Shown here in pieces: positions 120-20,774 of a stretch of DNA of 20,774 bases. Each line of letters starts with the position of its first letter. Positions within the stretch are counted from its first letter, which is position 1. The notes under the pieces are model-generated. The model worked only from the letters and a program-made list of their open reading frames with translations, was not told the DNA's origin and ran no database searches. This DNA is from a virus: positions 1 through 20,774 of the IMG/VR virus record IMGVR_UViG_3300025889_001163; one strand, written 5' to 3'. Made by a program: the position numbers and the translations under genes.

Positions 120-3100
120 ATGGCTAATGACTTTAATGTTAATGAATTTAAACTAAAAGACCCAGTACGTAATATCGGAGATGGATTACAAGAACCCATT
201 AAAGATAGTACGCCTGGGTTTTTTCAGTCTTTAAAGAATCCAATAGACCTTTGGAGAGAAGAATCATTACCTGCATCATTGTATCAATGGATCTCAGGTA
301 ACACTAAAAAAAAACAAGCTCAAGAAGCATACGATTATTTAAGAAACAATCCAGATAAACGTGGTGGTAAATTCTACCAAGAAGCAGAACGAATAATGAG
401 TCGTTTTGGTTATTTGTTAGATGAAGGGCCAATGAACATAGACCTAAAAGAAGTTGGGAATATGATGAAAGCCAACCCTAAAATGTTTGGTGCTGAACTT
501 GTAAACATGATGATGGCAGATCCATATTTATTGTTTATGCCTATGGGTTGGAGTGCATTAGGTAGAGGTGTAGTAAATAGTTTAAGATTAAAATACTCTA
601 AAGCATTTACTATGACTAGGCAAAAACCTAAGTTATTAAAATTAGCTCAACAAGAAAATGTAGCTAACTTAAAAGTAGGTGCGTTTGCCACACTAGCAAC
701 ACCCTTTGTATTTTCTACAGTATGGCAAGGATCTGAAGATAGAACATTAGATCCTAAAAGAACAACTATAGAGACTACTGTAGGTGCAACAGCAGGAGCT
801 GTTATATCTGTAGGATTTGCAGGTATGAGTGCTGCAGCAAGTAGAGCTCTTAGTATACCTAAAATTAGAACAGATAGTGCTACAACTAAAGTATTAAAAG
901 ACAATGGTGTAGATCCAAAAAGATTAATAGAAAAAACAGAAAATGGTAGCTACAAAAGTGTAGATGATTTATTAAAAGAATTAAAAAAAGAAGTTAAAGA
1001 TTTAGAAGATCCAGTTAAATTTAATGCAGTAGCAGCAGAAATTACATCAGCAATGAGACCAGCTATTGAAACTGGTTGGGATATGGCAGTTAATACTGCA
1101 GTTAAAGCTAGTGCAATCGGTGGAGTTGTAGGAGCAGCACAATTTCTTACAGCAGATGATGAAAAACTTGTAGCAACAGCTAAAGGATTTGGAGCAGGTG
1201 CAGCCTTATATGGTGCAGCTAAAATACTAGGTAGAAATTTTGGTAAAGTAGATAATGAAATAGCATTAGCTGGTGAATCAGCATTAGATGCTATGAAGTT
1301 TGGTACAGTTAAAATAAATACTGCAGCTCAAAACTTATCTAATAAAATTAAAGAAGCATTACCAGATGCTATAGATTCTAGACGTAAAGTATTTTATTAC
1401 ATTACTAAAGCTAGTGTAGATCCTGATACATTTGAATTTAATCCAAAGTTAGGTGCTATACCAGCAAGTAAACTTACAGCTAAAGAACTAGAAGTTGCTA
1501 AAACTGTAGAAAAAATATTTAAAGATTATAATAAAATTCTTGGTGAAGAAGGTAGTCAGTTGTTTATGAATCAAAGAGCTAACTACTTACCTTTAATGTG
1601 GGATCATTATAATCATAAACAGCAACCATTTAGATTTTCATCTGAGTTTGATAAACAAGTAGCTGGGCCATCAGGTAGATTTCAATTTAATAGACGTGGT
1701 GTATTTGCAGATATAAACGCAGGTTTAGTTAAAAAATATAAAATACGTCCTGGTATGGATGATCCTGCAGAATTAGTTAGAGTATATGGTTTTGCTGCGT
1801 CTAAAGCATTAGCTACTAGATCTTTAATTACACATTTGGAAAAACATAAAGTTAATAACAAAGCTCTTATGTTTAGATCTGTAAAAAATAATGTAGACAT
1901 GAGAGACTACGATGAATTTATACATCCTTACTTTGAAGGTAAAGGAGCTGTATTTGTTCATAAAGGTATGCATAGATCATTACGTATGGTGTTTGATGCT
2001 ACTGAAGAACAAGCATTTATGGGTGCATTGTTTACAACTAACCTTATGATGAAAAGATTAGCTGTTGGATTTTCTTTTTTTCATGCAGGTGCTCTAGTAG
2101 AAAGTATGTTATTTGCAGGTAACAAACTTAATTTTATTAAAAAAACTTTAGATCCTAGAAAAAAACCTGAATTATTAGAGATGATTAATAATCCTAATAA
2201 AACTATTACAGAATTTCCAACTGCAATAGAACAATTAAAAGCAGCTGGTTATACTGATGTAGCAAGATTTGCACAAGGTTCTGGTTTACAAATTACTACT
2301 CCTGAAGATATAGGTTTTGATAGATTCTATTATAACTTAAGAGGTATAGATACTTTCTTAAAAAATCATTTTGGTATTTCTTCTGGTGGACAAGCAGAAA
2401 AAGTATTTAGATGGTTTGATAGAATTACATGGGATAGAGTATTTACTGCAGCTAAACTACATACATTTTTACAAGTATTAGATTCACCTAAATTAAAAGG
2501 TGTACCAAACACTTTAGTCATTCAACCTGGCGATACAATAGGTCAGATATATGCTAAAGCAAGTAAAGCAGCACAGTTTACTAATGATGCATTTGGTGGA
2601 CAAAACTGGGAACAAGTAGCGAACAGAATAAGAACACCTTGGGTTAAACAATTAGCACAAACTACATTACGTCCAGGATCTAGAGGATATATGCAATTGT
2701 TATTATTTGCTCCTGATTGGACAATATCTAACATAAGAATTATTGCTAAGTCTTTACCAGCTTTTGAAAGCGATGAAGGTCTTAGAAGAATGTATCAATA
2801 CTATTTTGCAAGAGCTGCACTTACATACGCAGCTGCAGGATCTGCACTTAACTATATATTTAGTGGTCACTCTATATTAGAAAACACAGATCCAACTAGA
2901 ATTGACTTAGGGAATGGTCAAGTATTAACTTTCTCTAAACAATTGATGGAACCTTTCCATTGGATAACAGATCCACAATCTACAGGTCTTAAAAAGATTG
3001 GGTCTTTACCAAGAACAACAATAGAAGTATTAACTAATAAAAAATACTTGACTACTAAATGGAGTCCAAACATCACTAAAAAAGATGATGATGCTATTGA

Positions 3101-3338
3101 GAAAGGTTTATCTATAGGAGGTCATGTTGGTAAAAGATTTTTACCTATTTGGCTGCAACAAGCAACAGCTTCAATAGAACAAGGTTTGCTAAAAGATGGT
3201 CTATCTTTAGACTTAGCAGCAGACACTTCTGTTGATTTTGTACTAGGGCAATTAGGTCACCCTAGATACCAAGGGCCTAGATATACACAATACAAAACGA
3301 AAGGGTTAGTAAGGTCTCCTTACGAAACATTATTCTAA
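120..3338 (+). CDS. Very large putative internal virion / DNA-ejection protein (1072 aa)
   Basis: This is by far the longest gene in the window, and no enzyme motif is visible. Several Gly/Ala-rich, membrane-compatible stretches are seen near residues 187-200, 220-240, about 325-350, about 358-373 and about 895-915. They are separated by long soluble, mostly helical, Lys-rich segments. The size and the pattern of scattered hydrophobic patches match internal virion proteins of short-tailed phages, which are ejected and form a conduit across the envelope; this is inference by architecture and position. It begins right after the preceding stop and ends in a TAATG overlap with the next gene. A plausible ribosome site is the GGAGG at 97-101, but it lies about 18 nt upstream, so coupling to the upstream gene is likely. 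A tail protein or a polymorphic virion structural protein remains possible. Confidence 0.6.
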   Translation: MANDFNVNEFKLKDPVRNIGDGLQEPIKDSTPGFFQSLKNPIDLWREESLPASLYQWISGNTKKKQAQEAYDYLRNNPDKRGGKFYQEAERIMSRFGYLLDEGPMNIDLKEVGNMMKANPKMFGAELVNMMMADPYLLFMPMGWSALGRGVVNSLRLKYSKAFTMTRQKPKLLKLAQQENVANLKVGAFATLATPFVFSTVWQGSEDRTLDPKRTTIETTVGATAGAVISVGFAGMSAAASRALSIPKIRTDSATTKVLKDNGVDPKRLIEKTENGSYKSVDDLLKELKKEVKDLEDPVKFNAVAAEITSAMRPAIETGWDMAVNTAVKASAIGGVVGAAQFLTADDEKLVATAKGFGAGAALYGAAKILGRNFGKVDNEIALAGESALDAMKFGTVKINTAAQNLSNKIKEALPDAIDSRRKVFYYITKASVDPDTFEFNPKLGAIPASKLTAKELEVAKTVEKIFKDYNKILGEEGSQLFMNQRANYLPLMWDHYNHKQQPFRFSSEFDKQVAGPSGRFQFNRRGVFADINAGLVKKYKIRPGMDDPAELVRVYGFAASKALATRSLITHLEKHKVNNKALMFRSVKNNVDMRDYDEFIHPYFEGKGAVFVHKGMHRSLRMVFDATEEQAFMGALFTTNLMMKRLAVGFSFFHAGALVESMLFAGNKLNFIKKTLDPRKKPELLEMINNPNKTITEFPTAIEQLKAAGYTDVARFAQGSGLQITTPEDIGFDRFYYNLRGIDTFLKNHFGISSGGQAEKVFRWFDRITWDRVFTAAKLHTFLQVLDSPKLKGVPNTLVIQPGDTIGQIYAKASKAAQFTNDAFGGQNWEQVANRIRTPWVKQLAQTTLRPGSRGYMQLLLFAPDWTISNIRIIAKSLPAFESDEGLRRMYQYYFARAALTYAAAGSALNYIFSGHSILENTDPTRIDLGNGQVLTFSKQLMEPFHWITDPQSTGLKKIGSLPRTTIEVLTNKKYLTTKWSPNITKKDDDAIEKGLSIGGHVGKRFLPIWLQQATASIEQGLLKDGLSLDLAADTSVDFVLGQLGHPRYQGPRYTQYKTKGLVRSPYETLF

Positions 3339-16568: not shown

Positions 16569-16835
16569 ATGAGCATACCATTTCACGCTGGTAGAATAGG
16601 CGTATCGTTCTTAGAGAAGCTATACAAAGGTAAAAGCTTTCTAGGTAAAAAGACTGGTGATGCAGTTAAGCATCTATCAGCTAAAGGACACACAAAAACT
16701 GCAAAATATACTAACCTAGCAGCACAAAACGTGAACAAAGGCATAAACTACGCAGATAAAACTATTAGAAAGTACCCTAAATCAGCATCAGCTGTAGGTG
16801 GTGCAATAGCTTTTGATATATTTGATGACGACTAA
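16569..16835 (+). CDS. Small basic protein with hydrophobic C-terminal patch (88 aa)
   Basis: The product has 88 residues. It begins MSIPFHAGRIGVSFLEKLYK, has a Lys/Gly/Thr-rich middle and an Ala/Gly-rich hydrophobic end (SASAVGGAIAFDIFDDD). AAAGG lies six to seven bases upstream. It is the first gene of the plus-strand packaging block. Similar composition (basic body, Gly/Ala segment) is seen in the proteins at 17759-18046 and 18256-18612, suggesting a minor virion or membrane-associated set. No family is recognised. Confidence 0.6.
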   Translation: MSIPFHAGRIGVSFLEKLYKGKSFLGKKTGDAVKHLSAKGHTKTAKYTNLAAQNVNKGINYADKTIRKYPKSASAVGGAIAFDIFDDD

Positions 16836-16969
16836 TGGCTAAGCAGAAGTTTGTCCATTTCGTACCTAGGGAAAAACCCAAAAAAAGACGTGGAATCCAC
16901 AAAAAATCGAAATCGAAGTCGGAAAAACTACAGCAAAAGCTAAAGAGATATAAAGGACAAGGCAGATAA
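16835..16969 (+). CDS. Tiny basic conserved phage protein ending GQGR (44 aa)
   Basis: The frame runs from the ATG at 16835, sharing one base with the previous stop (TAATG), to TAA at 16967-16969. It reads MAKQKFVHFVPREKPKKRRG, has a run of Lys/Ser, and ends KRYKGQGR. The pattern K-F-[VI]-H-[FY]-V-P, K-K-R-x-G-x-H-K-K and Y-K/R-G-Q-G matches small proteins I recall from marine phages, placed in the same gene string. Probably DNA- or RNA-binding or a virion component. Function unknown. Confidence 0.68.
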   Translation: MAKQKFVHFVPREKPKKRRGIHKKSKSKSEKLQQKLKRYKGQGR

Positions 16970-17109
16970 TGAAAAAAATACCATATAGCGTTTTTAAAAT
17001 TGACATGAAAAAACAATTAGCTAAAAAGGAACAGTTTACAAAAGACTTGAAATCTAAAAAATTTCGAAAAACAACTAAATTACTAGAATACGCTAAAAGG
17101 TTTATATAA
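16969..17109 (+). CDS. Tiny basic protein (46 aa)
   Basis: The frame from the ATG at 16969 (TAATG overlap) to TAA at 17107-17109 reads MKKIPYSVFKIDMKKQLAKK, then KDLKSKKFRKTTKLLEYAKR and FI. It is almost half Lys plus hydrophobic residues in a helix-like pattern. It is part of the same chain of overlapping minigenes. No family is recognised. Confidence 0.6.
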   Translation: MKKIPYSVFKIDMKKQLAKKEQFTKDLKSKKFRKTTKLLEYAKRFI

Positions 17110-17111
17110 TT

Positions 17112-17261
17112 ATGGCAAAACGTGGACTATACGCAAACATTCATGCTAAGCGAAAGCGAATCAAGGCAGGATCAAACGAAAAAATGCGAAAAAAAGGTGC
17201 GAAAGGTGCACCAACTGCTAAACAATTTAAACGAGCAGCCAAGACTGCTAAGAAAAGATAA
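17112..17261 (+). CDS. Conserved phage miniprotein MAKRGLYANIHAKRKRI type (49 aa)
   Basis: The frame from the ATG at 17112 to a TAA sharing its last A with the next ATG (17259-17263) gives 49 residues. MAKRGLYANIHAKRKRIKAG, then KMRKKGAKGAPTAKQFKRAA is a very recognisable conserved phage motif, found in tailed phages of many proteobacteria near head or packaging genes. It is rich in Lys, Arg and Gly, with G-A-P-T as a fixed turn. No function has been assigned that I know of; DNA condensation or capsid interior binding is plausible. Confidence 0.75.
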   Translation: MAKRGLYANIHAKRKRIKAGSNEKMRKKGAKGAPTAKQFKRAAKTAKKR

Positions 17262-17512
17262 TGGCAAAGACAGCAGCATGGCAGCGTAAAGAAGGTAAGA
17301 ACCCAAAGGGGGGTTTGAATGCCAAAGGTCGTGCTAGTTATAAAAGACAAACTGGGGGAACGTTAAAAGCTCCTAGCAAAAAAGTAGGAAACAAACGTAG
17401 AGCATCGTTTTGTGCTAGAATGAAAGGCATGAAACGTAAGCTAACCTCTGCTAAGACTGCAAGAGATCCTAATAGCAGAATAAATAAATCATTAAGAGCA
17501 TGGAATTGTTAA
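17261..17512 (+). CDS. DUF6321-like conserved phage protein (83 aa)
   Basis: The product has 83 residues. The signature positions are W7, KNPKGGLNAKGRASYKRQTG, then a Lys-rich loop, RRASFCARMKGMKRKLTSAK, and the terminal NKSLRAWNC. This S-F-C-x-R-M-x-G-M ... S-R-I-N-K-S-L-R-x-W-N-C block is the hallmark of the DUF6321-type protein that is widespread in phages, including cyanophages and pelagiphages. Two Cys are near-invariant. Its role is unproven. It overlaps the previous gene by one base. Confidence 0.8.
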   Translation: MAKTAAWQRKEGKNPKGGLNAKGRASYKRQTGGTLKAPSKKVGNKRRASFCARMKGMKRKLTSAKTARDPNSRINKSLRAWNC

Positions 17513-17513
17513 T

Positions 17514-17762
17514 ATGAGTAAAAAATTAGAAAAATTAGCTGATGAAATGATTAACTTAAGTCCAGAAGAAGGACAAAAGTTAGCTTTAATAATCAGAGCA
17601 AAAGTTATGCCTGAACAGGCTAAACAACAACAGCAACAGGGTTTACTACAGCAGCAAAACCCTCAAGCTCAACAACAAATGGCAATGATGGGTAAACGAC
17701 CAGGTGGTAATATGCCTATGCCTAATTCAAGAGAAGCTGCTATGAGAGGACTATTAAGATGA
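17514..17762 (+). CDS. Gln/Met-rich small protein (82 aa)
   Basis: The product has 82 residues. A helical first third (MSKKLEKLADEMINLSPEEG) is followed by a low-complexity Gln stretch (KQQQQQGLLQQQNPQAQQQM), a Met/Gly/Pro linker and the basic end REAAMRGLLR. The Q-rich part is probably disordered. It is close to the TAA of the previous gene and overlaps the next by ATGA. A linker or virion accessory role is possible; no family is recognised. Confidence 0.65.
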   Translation: MSKKLEKLADEMINLSPEEGQKLALIIRAKVMPEQAKQQQQQGLLQQQNPQAQQQMAMMGKRPGGNMPMPNSREAAMRGLLR

Positions 17763-18046
17763 TCAACAAAATAGCTAAACTCTTTGTTAAGAAAAAACCA
17801 ACTTTTTTTGAAAAAGCTAAAAGTACAGCTACATCATATGGTTCTAAAGCTAAAGCAAAGGGTATGGACGCATTTGGAAAAATGCAAAAAACTAAACTAT
17901 ACAAAGACGCATCAAACTCTATTGGTGAGCTAAGTGCTAAATATAAAAAATTGCCTAAGAACTACAAAACAGGAATTAAAGTAGCAGGTGCTACAGCTGT
18001 TGTTGGTGGTGCTTACGCAGCAGGAAAATCAAAAAGGAAATCATAA
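17759..18046 (+). CDS. Basic protein with Gly/Ala hydrophobic segment (95 aa)
   Basis: The product has 95 residues. It begins MINKIAKLFVKKKPTFFEKA, has a Lys-rich helical body (STATSYGSKAKAKGMDAFGK), and a Gly/Ala/Val segment near the end (IKVAGATAVVGGAYAAG), followed by KSKRKS. This pattern resembles the products of 16569-16835 and 18256-18612. A membrane-active, capsid-associated or DNA-binding role may be proposed. It begins in ATGA and ends in TAATG. Confidence 0.6.
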   Translation: MINKIAKLFVKKKPTFFEKAKSTATSYGSKAKAKGMDAFGKMQKTKLYKDASNSIGELSAKYKKLPKNYKTGIKVAGATAVVGGAYAAGKSKRKS

Positions 18047-18153
18047 TGCCACAAGTAGGAAAGAAAAAATTTAGTTACACTAAAGCTGGTAAAAAGAAAG
18101 CTAAAGCGTACGCTAAAAAAACTGGAAAAAAAATGAAAAAAGGTAAATATTAA
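18046..18153 (+). CDS. Conserved phage miniprotein, Lys-rich (35 aa)
   Basis: The frame from the ATG at 18046 (TAATG) to TAA at 18151-18153 gives 35 residues with 15 Lys. MPQVGKKKFSYTKAGKKKAK, then AYAKKTGKKMKKGKY matches the very short phage protein pattern K-K-x-F-x-Y-T-x-A-G-K-x-x-A-K-A-Y-A-K-K-T-G-K that I recall from many marine phages. Probably nucleic-acid binding. Function unknown. Confidence 0.72.
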   Translation: MPQVGKKKFSYTKAGKKKAKAYAKKTGKKMKKGKY

Positions 18154-18251
18154 TGTTAAAAGGTAAACAAAAAAATCTACCACCTGCTTTAAAAAAGAAA
18201 ATTATGGCAGCTAAAATGAAAAAGAAAAGTAAAAAAACAAAAAAAAGTTAA
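18153..18251 (+). CDS. Conserved phage miniprotein MLKGKQKNLPPALKKKI type (32 aa)
   Basis: The frame from the ATG at 18153 (TAATG) to TAA at 18249-18251 gives 32 residues, 14 of them Lys. MLKGKQKNLPPALKKKIMAA is followed by an uninterrupted basic tail. The pattern L-K-G-K-Q-K-x-L-P-x-x-L-K-K-K-I is familiar from small ORFs in the same place in marine and other phages. Function unknown. Confidence 0.7.
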   Translation: MLKGKQKNLPPALKKKIMAAKMKKKSKKTKKS

Positions 18252-18255
18252 TAAT

Positions 18256-18612
18256 ATGAATAGAATATTTCCAACATCATCAGGTACTAATGTAAGTGGT
18301 GATTTGTTAAAAAAAGCTAAACAGCATATTAAGACTGGTAAAAAGTTTATTAATAAAAAAGTATTACCATCAGCTACTAAAAACTATAAAAGTTATGTAG
18401 CACCAACTGTAGGTTTATTTAAAGGTGCAGCAAATATAGCAACTGGTGTAGGTAAACTTGCATTAAGAAATCCATTATTAGCTGCTGGTACTTATGTAGC
18501 TGCTAAAGCATTTAATCCAAAAGGTAAATTTGCTAAAGGTAAAAAATTTCATGAATTTGGTGATGCTGGTAAAGTATTATCTAAAGGTGGAAAGAAAATA
18601 TTTTATGGTTGA
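18256..18612 (+). CDS. Basic protein with Gly/Ala hydrophobic segment (118 aa)
   Basis: The product has 118 residues. It begins MNRIFPTSSGTNVSGDLLKK, then a Lys-rich region, a hydrophobic/Gly/Ala section (VGLFKGAANIATGVGKLALR, NPLLAAGTYVAAKAF), and a basic end with FAKGKKFHEFGDAGK. It lies just before the small terminase gene and overlaps it by 8 nt. The layout is similar to 17759-18046. Possible virion accessory or internal protein; no family recognised. Confidence 0.6.
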   Translation: MNRIFPTSSGTNVSGDLLKKAKQHIKTGKKFINKKVLPSATKNYKSYVAPTVGLFKGAANIATGVGKLALRNPLLAAGTYVAAKAFNPKGKFAKGKKFHEFGDAGKVLSKGGKKIFYG

Positions 18613-18916
18613 AGATAAAACAGAAGAAGCAAAAACAGATAACCATGGTGGTAAAAGACCTGGAGCTGGTAGACCTGCTGGTGCAAAGACTAAAAAGAAT
18701 TGGAAGTCTATGGAGGAAATGGCTGTAAAATACCAACATTCTCCTTTGGATTATTTATTATCTGTGTTAAACAATCCTATGAGCTCACCTGAACGTAAAA
18801 TGTATGCAGCCGAAAAAGCAGCACCATTTGTTCATGCGAGGTTAGCATCAACTAATACTAAAATAGGAACAGATGAACCAATCGCAATCAAAGTCTCTTG
18901 GCAAAAAGACGACTAA
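18605..18916 (+). CDS. terS: Terminase small subunit (DNA recognition) candidate
   Basis: The start at 18605 (MVEDKTEEAKTDNHGGKRPG) is chosen because the upstream part of the same frame reads poorly and an 8-nt overlap with the previous gene is the local habit. The product has 103 residues. It has GGKRPGAGRPAGAKTKKN (AT-hook-like, typical of terminase small subunits) and then HSPLDYLLSVLNNPMSSPER, AAEKAAPFVHARLAS. It would bind viral DNA and dock the large subunit. Direct adjacency to terL supports this. The 44-nt overlap with terL suggests coupled translation. Confidence 0.78.
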   Translation: MVEDKTEEAKTDNHGGKRPGAGRPAGAKTKKNWKSMEEMAVKYQHSPLDYLLSVLNNPMSSPERKMYAAEKAAPFVHARLASTNTKIGTDEPIAIKVSWQKDD

Positions 18917-20186
18917 GAAAAAAGTCGCTGAAGTAGAAATACCCTATAAGCCTAGACCTTACCAACAAGACGTACACAATGCACTTAAAAGATTTAGTGT
19001 TCTTGTATGTCATAGAAGATTTGGTAAATCAGTACTAGCTATTAACGAATTAATTAAAACAGCAGCAGATAAACAAAGATCTCTTTGTGCATTCATAGCT
19101 CCAACTTATCGCCAAGGTAAAGCTATCGCTTGGGAATATTTAAAATATTATACTAAACCACTAATGCATTTTGGTGGAACTAGAAATGAAACAGAATTAA
19201 GAATAGATCTATTTAATGGATCACGTATTCAAATCTTTGGAGCAGACAATCCAGATAGTATTCGTGGAATGGGCTTTGATAAAGTTGTAATGGACGAATA
19301 TGCTATCATGTCTCCAAGAGTATGGACAGAAATTGTAAGACCAGCAGTATCAGATAAACTAGGATCAGTTTTATTTATAGGTACGCCAATGGGACATAAC
19401 CAGTTTTGGGAAGTATTTGACTTTGCACAACGTGGTCATAAAGATTGGTATGGTAAGTTATATAGAGCATCTGAAACACAAGTAATACCAGATGACGAGT
19501 TAGAACAAGCTCGTGCTATAATGACTGAAGAACAATACCAACAAGAATTTGAGTGTTCATTTACAGCAGCAGTATCAGGAAGTTATTATGGCAGACTGAT
19601 AACTAAAGCAGATAAAGAAGAACGAATAGGGGAAGTACCTGTAGACGAAAATGCAGGAGTGGAAACCTGGTGGGATTTGGGGATAGGAGATTCAACTGCA
19701 ATATGGTTTGCACAAAGAATAGGAACCGAAATTCATTTGGTAGACTATTATGAAACTTCAGGTGAATCATTAGCACACTATGCAAATATATTAATGGAGA
19801 AAGATTATGCTTATAGCAGACATATAGCTCCACACGATATAATGGCACGTGAGCTTGGAACAGGTAAGTCAAGATTAGAAGTAGCAAACGAATTAGGCAT
19901 TGACTTTGAGGTAGCACCTAAGTTAGAAGTAGATCATGGTATTGAATCTGTAAGAAATACTTTACCTAATTGTTACTTCGATAGAGTTAAATGTAAAACA
20001 GGATTAGATGCTTTGAGACAGTATCGAAAACAATGGGATGATAAAAACCAAGTGTTTAAGAATAAACCTCTCCATGACTGGTGCTCACATGCAAGTGATG
20101 CATTTAGATATGGATGTGTTCATGATCCTATTGATACAACAGAATGGGATAAACCAATTAATATAGATACAAAATACGTAGTATGA
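18873..20186 (+). CDS. terL: Terminase large subunit (packaging ATPase and nuclease)
   Basis: The product has 437 residues. The ATPase half shows the Walker A variant CHRRFGKS at 46-53, Walker B VVMDE at 138-142 and the coupling motif LFIGTP at 167-172. The nuclease half has acidic residues in WWDLGIGDS at 266-274 (D268), LVDYYE at 289-294 (D291) and HDWCSHASDAFRY at 401-413 (D409), the usual RNase H-like triad. It drives DNA into the procapsid and cuts concatemers. The start overlaps the small-subunit gene by 44 nt, and the TGA overlaps the portal start (ATGA at 20183-20186). Length is in the normal range for this class. Confidence 0.95.
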   Translation: MNQSQSKSLGKKTTKKKVAEVEIPYKPRPYQQDVHNALKRFSVLVCHRRFGKSVLAINELIKTAADKQRSLCAFIAPTYRQGKAIAWEYLKYYTKPLMHFGGTRNETELRIDLFNGSRIQIFGADNPDSIRGMGFDKVVMDEYAIMSPRVWTEIVRPAVSDKLGSVLFIGTPMGHNQFWEVFDFAQRGHKDWYGKLYRASETQVIPDDELEQARAIMTEEQYQQEFECSFTAAVSGSYYGRLITKADKEERIGEVPVDENAGVETWWDLGIGDSTAIWFAQRIGTEIHLVDYYETSGESLAHYANILMEKDYAYSRHIAPHDIMARELGTGKSRLEVANELGIDFEVAPKLEVDHGIESVRNTLPNCYFDRVKCKTGLDALRQYRKQWDDKNQVFKNKPLHDWCSHASDAFRYGCVHDPIDTTEWDKPINIDTKYVV

Positions 20187-20774
20187 AAAAATCAAATCAA
20201 GAAATATTATCAGTAGTAAGTAGAGAGATACATAACGCATCAGGTTATATTGGTGGAGAACTTGTAGCTCGAAGAAAAAAATCATTAGAATATTATTTAG
20301 GACAACCTCTTGGTAACGAACAAGAAGGTAGATCTCAAGTAGTATCTAACGATGTTTTAGATACAGTAGAAAGTTTAATGCCATCATTGATGAGAATATT
20401 TACATCAGGTGACAATGTATTTAATTGTGAAGGCATGGGGCCTGAAGATGAAGAAATGGCTAGACAATGTTCTGACTATTTAAACTATATTTTTTATAAA
20501 GAGAATGATGGTTTCTTAGCTTTATATACTGCGTTCAAAGATGCACTAATCCAAAAAAATGGAATCCTAAAAGTATATTGGGATGATGCACAAAAAATTG
20601 AAAGAGAAGAATACTCAAGATTAACTGATGATGAGTTTAATGACTTAGTCTCTATGGATGAGATTAAAGTTTCTAATCATAGTGAATACGAAGAAAAAAT
20701 TACAGACGAAGCTGGTAAAGAAATAGATAAAATTAAATTACATGATATAGTTATTCATAGAACAAAAATTCATG
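20183..20774 (+). CDS. Portal protein, N-terminal part (3' partial)
   Basis: The frame from the ATG at 20183 remains open to the window edge (197 codons). The visible portion has EQEGRSQVVSNDVLDTVESL, MPSLMRIFTSGDNVFNCEG, GPEDEEMARQCSDYLNYIFY and LALYTAFKDALIQKNGILKV, followed by YW. This is the N-terminal domain pattern of the portal family in podovirus-type and related phages, in which D-V-x-D-x-V-E-x-x-M-P-x-L-x-R-I-F is the most conserved block. It forms the dodecameric DNA gate of the capsid. ATGA coupling to terL supports it. The rest is outside the window. Confidence 0.88.
   Translation, partial: MKKSNQEILSVVSREIHNASGYIGGELVARRKKSLEYYLGQPLGNEQEGRSQVVSNDVLDTVESLMPSLMRIFTSGDNVFNCEGMGPEDEEMARQCSDYLNYIFYKENDGFLALYTAFKDALIQKNGILKVYWDDAQKIEREEYSRLTDDEFNDLVSMDEIKVSNHSEYEEKITDEAGKEIDKIKLHDIVIHRTKIH

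Follow-up and report, generated by a model that had tools for sequence, protein, structure and literature searches.

What does a row of very small, strongly basic genes do immediately in front of the packaging genes of a phage? The question is raised by a 20,774-base IMG/VR virus record (IMGVR_UViG_3300025889_001163, the whole of which is called the window below), where ten small plus-strand open reading frames (ORFs), named here by their start coordinates, occupy positions 16569-18612 directly upstream of a gene resembling the terminase small subunit (TerS) and of the gene for the terminase large subunit (TerL). Our reading, to which we assign a probability of about 0.62, is that this cassette encodes a kit of small, positively charged proteins that are packed with the genome inside the head. 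Sequence comparison makes a head-interior kit probable, because T4-like relatives produce two of the members as one protein with a tag-like start and protease-type sites. A head-interior location is well supported for the families of these two members, 17112 and 17261, the latter belonging to DUF6321; we infer it for the other eight cassette families and for the podovirus products. A DNA-condensing role is offered as a hypothesis.

The sequence-only reading of this locus had described a row of six ORFs, of 44, 46, 49, 83, 35 and 32 residues, at 16835, 16969, 17112, 17261, 18046 and 18153. The coordinates are right and the row is real, but it consists of ten ORFs: 17514 and 17759 lie between the 83- and 35-residue genes, and 16569 and 18256 on the flanks. 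Several products had been said to exceed 40% Lys, which is true of only two, 18046 (43%) and 18153 (44%); the values for 16835, 16969, 17112 and 17261 are 18-30%. One-base stop/start overlaps, supposed to form most junctions, account for five of the nine in the ten-ORF cassette, but the other four are -4, +1, +2 and +4, so that the junctions span -4 to +4. The net charge of one copy of each of the ten proteins is +152.

Relatives were collected as 80 TerL-bearing loci, and the 38 with at least 2 kb upstream of TerL were counted as testable. The cassette recurs in all 38: 17514, 18046 and the TerS-like gene are present in 38, 16835 in 36, 16569 in 33, 17261 in 29, 16969 in 24, 17112 in 20, 17759 in 13, 18256 in 12, and 18153 in 4. 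A slot that lacks a homologue is usually filled by a different small basic ORF (window and 11 loci). Among the ORFs tiled over a 1,650-bp cassette stretch in the 38 relatives and the window, 276 of 292 have a net charge of at least +5, compared with 5 of 27 ORFs in the minus-strand early region of the window that served as a control; one-base overlaps occur at 91 of 253 cassette junctions in the same set. The content of the cassette is modular and its character constant. The ratio of nonsynonymous to synonymous substitution (dN/dS), for which only orthologues without gaps were used (70 for 18046, 5-34 for each other gene), is below 1 for all ten ORFs, as expected under purifying selection, and the ORFs are therefore not chance. 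The value is 0.066 for 17261, which is more constrained than TerL (0.082), 0.135 for 17112 and a loose 0.61 for 16569.

The two best-supported members belong to recognized families. The match of 17112 to phrog_16028 covers its full length (residues 1-49 against a 50-position profile), and 17261 scores 82.3 bits against the DUF6321 profile, where the curated cut-off is 28.5. Of 50,697 GenBank phage records, mostly from cyanophages and pelagiphages where they match, 534 contain DUF6321 and 103 the 17112 family, and the wide conservation suggested in the sequence-only reading is borne out for these two. The same suggestion for 18046 agrees with an IMG/VR scan, where an ORF of this family is present in 77 of 80 loci, but not with GenBank phage records, in which tblastn gave zero matches; for 18153 conservation is weakest, extending to 4 of the 38 close relatives and to gp29 of HTVC168P. 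The 16835 family was found in 9 GenBank phage records, 8 of them named Pelagibacter phages.

Genes of the 17112 and DUF6321 families occur in many unrelated marine phages, mostly adjoining head or packaging genes; HTVC168P and P-SCSP1u each have both. The HTVC168P genes run portal, scaffold, gp29 (a 35-residue relative of 18153), a 17112-like gene, DUF6321 and capsid; in Venkman, whose TerL is among GenBank's nearest to that of the window, the 17112-like gene overlaps the DUF6321 gene by one base, and after this pair come a gp67 endonuclease gene and TerL. A related 38.9-kb contig (G001) has the order cassette, TerS-like gene, TerL, portal, scaffold and major head protein. Among 38 distinct contigs with both genes in stand-alone form, 17112 and DUF6321 adjoin in the window order in 24, and 23 of the 24 have a one-base overlap. 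A census of neighbours, taken as 99 of the first 100 distinct nearest large proteins (one per locus), gave head assembly 16, scaffold 11, TerL families up to 10, portal/adaptor families 6+3+3+3, major head families 4+3 and psbA 10; one protein may match several PHROG families, and the counts are among the families listed, 25 of 78. For the 18046 family (n=54) major head families were found in 10-11 neighbours and TerL in 6.

A further indication of location comes from T4-like phages. In Kyanoviridae, DUF6321 is often the C-terminal part of a longer basic protein encoded between TerS and TerL or beside TerL, and in T4-like cyanophages the 17112 and DUF6321 modules are fused, behind a tag-like N-terminus, in the order that they have in the window. 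A DUF6321 module is also present in SSM1_115, the S-SM1 member of the cluster T4-GC119. In T4 itself the first ten residues of the internal protein (IP) IPIII are sufficient as a capsid-targeting sequence, where residues 4 and 7 matter in targeting and residues 8 and 10 in processing, and gp21 cleaves after L/I-x-E (PMC9026906). The DUF6321 protein S-SZBM1_192 starts with MKTFKQYITEA, compared with MKTYQEFIAEA in IPIII. The tag-like pattern, a loose one first spotted by eye in S-SZBM1_192, is present in 28 of 60 distinct-start DUF6321 ORFs of 100-260 residues and in 70 of 2,366 other ORFs; shuffled N-termini gave a mean of 1.1 and a maximum of 5. The control set is strict, since it itself includes tag-bearing proteins, such as the product of a gene of ~106 residues. 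This ~106-residue protein (start such as MKTFKQFMSES) is found in many T4-like contigs (L006, L010, L260, L300 and others); it is encoded directly after the DUF6321 gene in S-SCSM1, Sf-FS3 and S-SZBM1 and is probably head-interior too.

Protease-type sites were sought at the module borders in 79 DUF6321 contexts less than 60% alike, a few of which are alternative upstream starts (e.g., ending MAKS) rather than polyprotein linkers and were kept in the count. In 31 contexts the DUF6321 module is preceded, at a distance of 0-2 residues, by the end of the strict motif [LI]xE, with 8 in total at distances 3-29; for the broad motif [LIVMF]xE the number is 57, with at most 4 at any other distance. 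These positions lie at about the start of the stand-alone genes. A first pass over 51 contexts had given 26 strict and 41 broad sites within 0-5 residues, the shuffle means being 4.0 and 8.5. Broad-motif sites also precede other modules (CWxGY 43/45, WFxxSKS 18/27, CYHK 11/21). In all 14 distinct fusions of DUF6321 with the 17112 family, which is recognized by its GLYANI motif, [LIVMF]xE ends 3-4 residues before GLY, coinciding with the stand-alone start M-AKR; when all internal occurrences of the 17112 module are considered, 2 of 14 have a site, but most of these occurrences seem to be alternative starts of stand-alone genes. The major capsid proteins of cyanophages have an LTE motif at positions 51-56, and that of T4 at 65; the comparable location makes a similar protease specificity plausible.

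Detection in virions can be followed for three DUF6321 proteins. S-CREM2 gp137 scores 40.8 bits with the Pfam model (cut-off 28.5, E 3.5e-10), and ORF137 is listed in the published mass spectrometry (MS) table of S-CREM2 virions with 4 unique peptides and 4.1% coverage (PMC10665884). S-SCSM1 gp029, which ends in DUF6321, is labelled "virion protein" in its own record; 45 virion proteins of this phage were identified by MS, and gp029 is not named in the corresponding section of the paper (PMC9602691). Together with S-SZBM1_192, considered below, the tally is one clear yes (S-CREM2), one probable yes (S-SCSM1) and one no (S-SZBM1). Lys-rich proteins may be cut too small in tryptic digests, which could make the kit hard to detect in virion proteomics. 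Another S-CREM2 protein, the cytidylyltransferase gp154 (L258:32609-33469), was found in virions by MS and starts with MKNFSSFLTEAD, a tag-like sequence that could account for its packaging.

The AlphaFold model of DUF6321 is a four-helix arrangement of moderate confidence (pLDDT 78, pTM 0.53), with 22 matches at E < 0.001 in a viral fold library; those that have names are DUF6321 proteins or the S-SCSM1 virion protein, which contains the domain. Solved structures gave nothing at E up to 1 when searched with profiles of DUF6321, 17112 and 18046. DUF6321-like stretches were also seen in two BFVD entries: A0A6J5R4H4, which is named for an AAA domain (E 1.1e-3), and, as a weak match (E 0.34), A0A6J5N5R9, whose name refers to a Ferritin/DPS domain.

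Several observations weigh against a head-interior kit. S-SZBM1_192, although it has a clear tag, is absent from the 30-protein MS table of S-SZBM1 (PMC9146016). At a coverage of 4.1%, no peptide of S-CREM2 ORF137 is shown to derive from its DUF6321 module, and the label of S-SCSM1 gp029 is taken from its record annotation. The tag pattern is post hoc, as is the choice of the broadened [LIVMF]xE motif, and the contexts share ancestry. In the ORF set examined, fusions were seen for 17112 and 17261 only and for none of the other eight families, and a fold search with the DUF6321 model gave nothing from the PDB below E 5. In HTVC010P and Greip, lysis or peptidase genes precede the DUF6321 gene, and in HTVC033P it adjoins an amidase gene; thus the location beside packaging genes, pointed out in the sequence-only reading, is common in the gene-order comparison but not universal. 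Finally, none of the cassette proteins has a significant match in the T7-like phages P-SSP7 and Syn5, and the kit is therefore dispensable for a T7-like body plan. The capsid-interior set proposed in the sequence-only reading is supported independently for two families, 17112 and 17261, by tags, sites, fusions, virion detection and head-gene neighbours, and for these two it stands better than composition by itself would allow; for the other members it rests on linkage and composition, and for 18046 also on neighbours.

We envisage the following mechanism. The late operon opens with the kit, so that its products would be made alongside the terminase and head proteins, with the one-base overlaps probably keeping the ratio of the members almost constant. 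Podoviruses like that of the window, seemingly without a prohead protease, encode each member as a mini-gene of its own; T4-like cyanophages carry the 17112 and 17261 modules inside longer basic proteins, many of them with a tag-like start and putative sites before each module, from which prohead processing would release peptides equivalent to the separate products of the window. The polycations of 32-83 residues may load with the scaffold or the DNA and lie against the packaged genome, and most likely coat the DNA and neutralize part of its charge. Members with hydrophobic stretches may aid ejection, and some or all of the set may leave with the DNA. A 38.9-kb genome has ~77,800 phosphates, of which 100 copies of each of the ten proteins would offset ~20%; the T4 internal proteins are present in 360-370 copies, in a far larger head (PMC9026906, Table 1). 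More tentatively, and at somewhat less than even odds, unrelated marine phage groups may share an exchangeable kit of this sort, carried as coupled mini-genes in T7-like and HTVC010P-related phages and as cut, capsid-targeted polyproteins in T4-like cyanophages, that coats the DNA and enters the host with cargo such as a S-adenosylmethionine (SAM, S-AdoMet) lyase blunting restriction upon entry.

The nearest known systems resemble this kit in part. Tag-like N-termini and sites of the L/I-x-E type link the window families, through their T4-like homologues, to T4 IPI, IPII and IPIII, and the window-family products are small and predicted to be head-interior. In contrast to the T4 proteins, the ten window proteins are, by inspection, without a capsid-targeting tag and, length for length, much more basic; a scan of 20 ORFs from G001 revealed no prohead protease. 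Homology to T4 internal proteins did not surface in the Pfam and PHROG family scans, no direct search having been made. We propose that the window proteins work like T4 internal proteins; with the tag absent, we claim no membership in that class. The genes of T7 gp6.7 and gp7.3 are likewise small head-region genes upstream of the portal gene, and gp7.3 has Lys-rich and Gly/Ala segments, but comparison of the cassette with the 18-24.5 kb region of T7 gave nothing better than E 0.089. The ejection proteins of giant phages (SPN3US, phiKZ) are large and are cut by a prohead protease at a different motif; the T4-like form of the kit would share with them a predicted head-internal set processed at short motifs. 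DUF6321 and phrog_16028, of which 17261 and 17112 are members, are families without an assigned function, for which a head-interior role is proposed here.

The same location in the head would also suit proteins injected to act in the new host, in counter-restriction or host takeover, their charge serving loading and release. T4 IPI is a restriction-enzyme inhibitor and the internal proteins are ejected (PMC9026906); T7 gp6.7 is injected, according to the T7 record annotation. Moreover, a 251-residue ORF of an IMG/VR contig (L369, 2524-3279) combines a tag-like start, MKTFSQFMAE, with S-AdoMet lyase (Pfam, 31.9 bits, cut-off 28) and DUF6321 (76.1 bits, cut-off 28.5). This ORF is a candidate head-packaged, injected counter-restriction enzyme, and the single fusion suggests that the same system can bring such an enzyme into the host, which keeps this explanation alive. 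We nevertheless consider it unlikely: most members are short, repetitive Lys-rich sequences, the Pfam and PHROG scans detected zero enzyme domains in the ten proteins, and the invariance of DUF6321 over many hosts is easier to reconcile with a generic partner, for instance DNA, than with varied host targets. A further S-AdoMet lyase match (Pfam, E 6.8e-8) is in S-SZBM1_194 (L260:23253-25376), a 707-residue basic multi-module protein encoded near TerS.

Less probable still is a late-infection role outside the virion, as terminase or packaging accessory factors or as RNA- or ribosome-binding proteins. TerS and TerL do come immediately after the cassette in the window and its relatives, 16969 weakly matches a ribosome-associated PHROG (E 0.022), and the missing S-SZBM1_192 in the MS table (PMC9146016) is in line with such a role; on the other side stand the capsid-targeting-like starts and prohead-protease-type sites of the homologues, the presence of S-CREM2 ORF137 in the virion table (PMC10665884), and the HTVC168P genes, which lie between scaffold and capsid, away from the terminase. 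It seems very unlikely that 16569, 17759 and 18256 act on membranes, as components of an ejection channel or of a lysis system, with the polycations as partners: Lys-rich segments joined to Gly/Ala hydrophobic stretches do recur in the same slots of relatives, and T7 gp7.3, which according to its annotation is needed for virions to be infective, is similarly built, but neither known ejection proteins nor holins came up as homologues in the Pfam and PHROG scans. That the mini-ORFs are spurious or neutral is hardly credible; they are very short, and Lys codons are frequent in DNA as AT-rich as theirs, but selection acts on all ten, on 17261 more strongly than on TerL, and the cassette recurs, tightly coupled, in 38 relatives.

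The features of the locus are collected in the table. The cassette is followed by the TerS-like gene (18605), TerL (18873) and the start of the portal gene (20183); the name of the first is one that we presume from its position and a GGKRPGAGRP motif. A relation of 17514 to portal tails was considered and rejected: its weak matches to portal C-termini are equalled by shuffled portal tails, and the likeness is a chance similarity of Gln-rich sequence. At the other end of the window, 120-3338 encodes a 1,072-residue protein without a Pfam match, possibly a large internal or ejection protein; the relative L256 has a 1,091-residue protein without a PHROG match. An Rfam scan of the window found nothing, and a promoter scan was uninformative (10 found, 12.2 expected).

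Table. Cassette genes and the genes that follow them in the window (coordinates, strand, product, match or occurrence)
16569..16835	+	88-residue basic protein, Gly/Ala-rich hydrophobic stretch, acidic C-terminus; first gene of the cassette	
16835..16969	+	44-residue basic protein	phrog_17967, E 1.4e-11
16969..17109	+	46-residue basic protein	
17112..17261	+	49-residue "GLYANI" basic protein	phrog_16028, E 8.1e-28
17261..17512	+	83-residue DUF6321 protein	Pfam PF19846
17514..17762	+	82-residue Gln-rich, mildly basic protein	in every testable relative
17759..18046	+	95-residue Lys-rich protein, C-terminal Gly/Ala hydrophobic stretch	
18046..18153	+	35-residue, 43% Lys protein, "VGKKKF-YT" family	
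18153..18251	+	32-residue, 44% Lys protein	75% over 24 residues to HTVC168P gp29
18256..18612	+	118-residue basic protein with hydrophobic stretches	
18605..18916	+	103-residue TerS-like protein	38/38 relatives
18873..20186	+	terminase large subunit	49% to HTVC106P TerL
20183..20773	+	portal protein start	assigned via relative L257

The name DUF6321 is unmentioned in the open literature searched, and the kit is undescribed in the titles and abstract openings of open papers on cyanophage head proteins and on Lys-rich or basic phage proteins; the available parts of the P-SCSP1u cryo-EM paper and of the P-SSP7 scale-up paper contain nothing on cassette proteins. Genes for DUF6321 and its 17112 companion are spread widely among marine phages and have had no explanation so far. 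A head-interior role, if true, would explain what many small "hypothetical" genes do, and one set of modules would be used as an operon in one type of virus and as a cut polyprotein in another. It would also provide a testable prediction on how DNA is packed and delivered by phages of major ocean bacteria.

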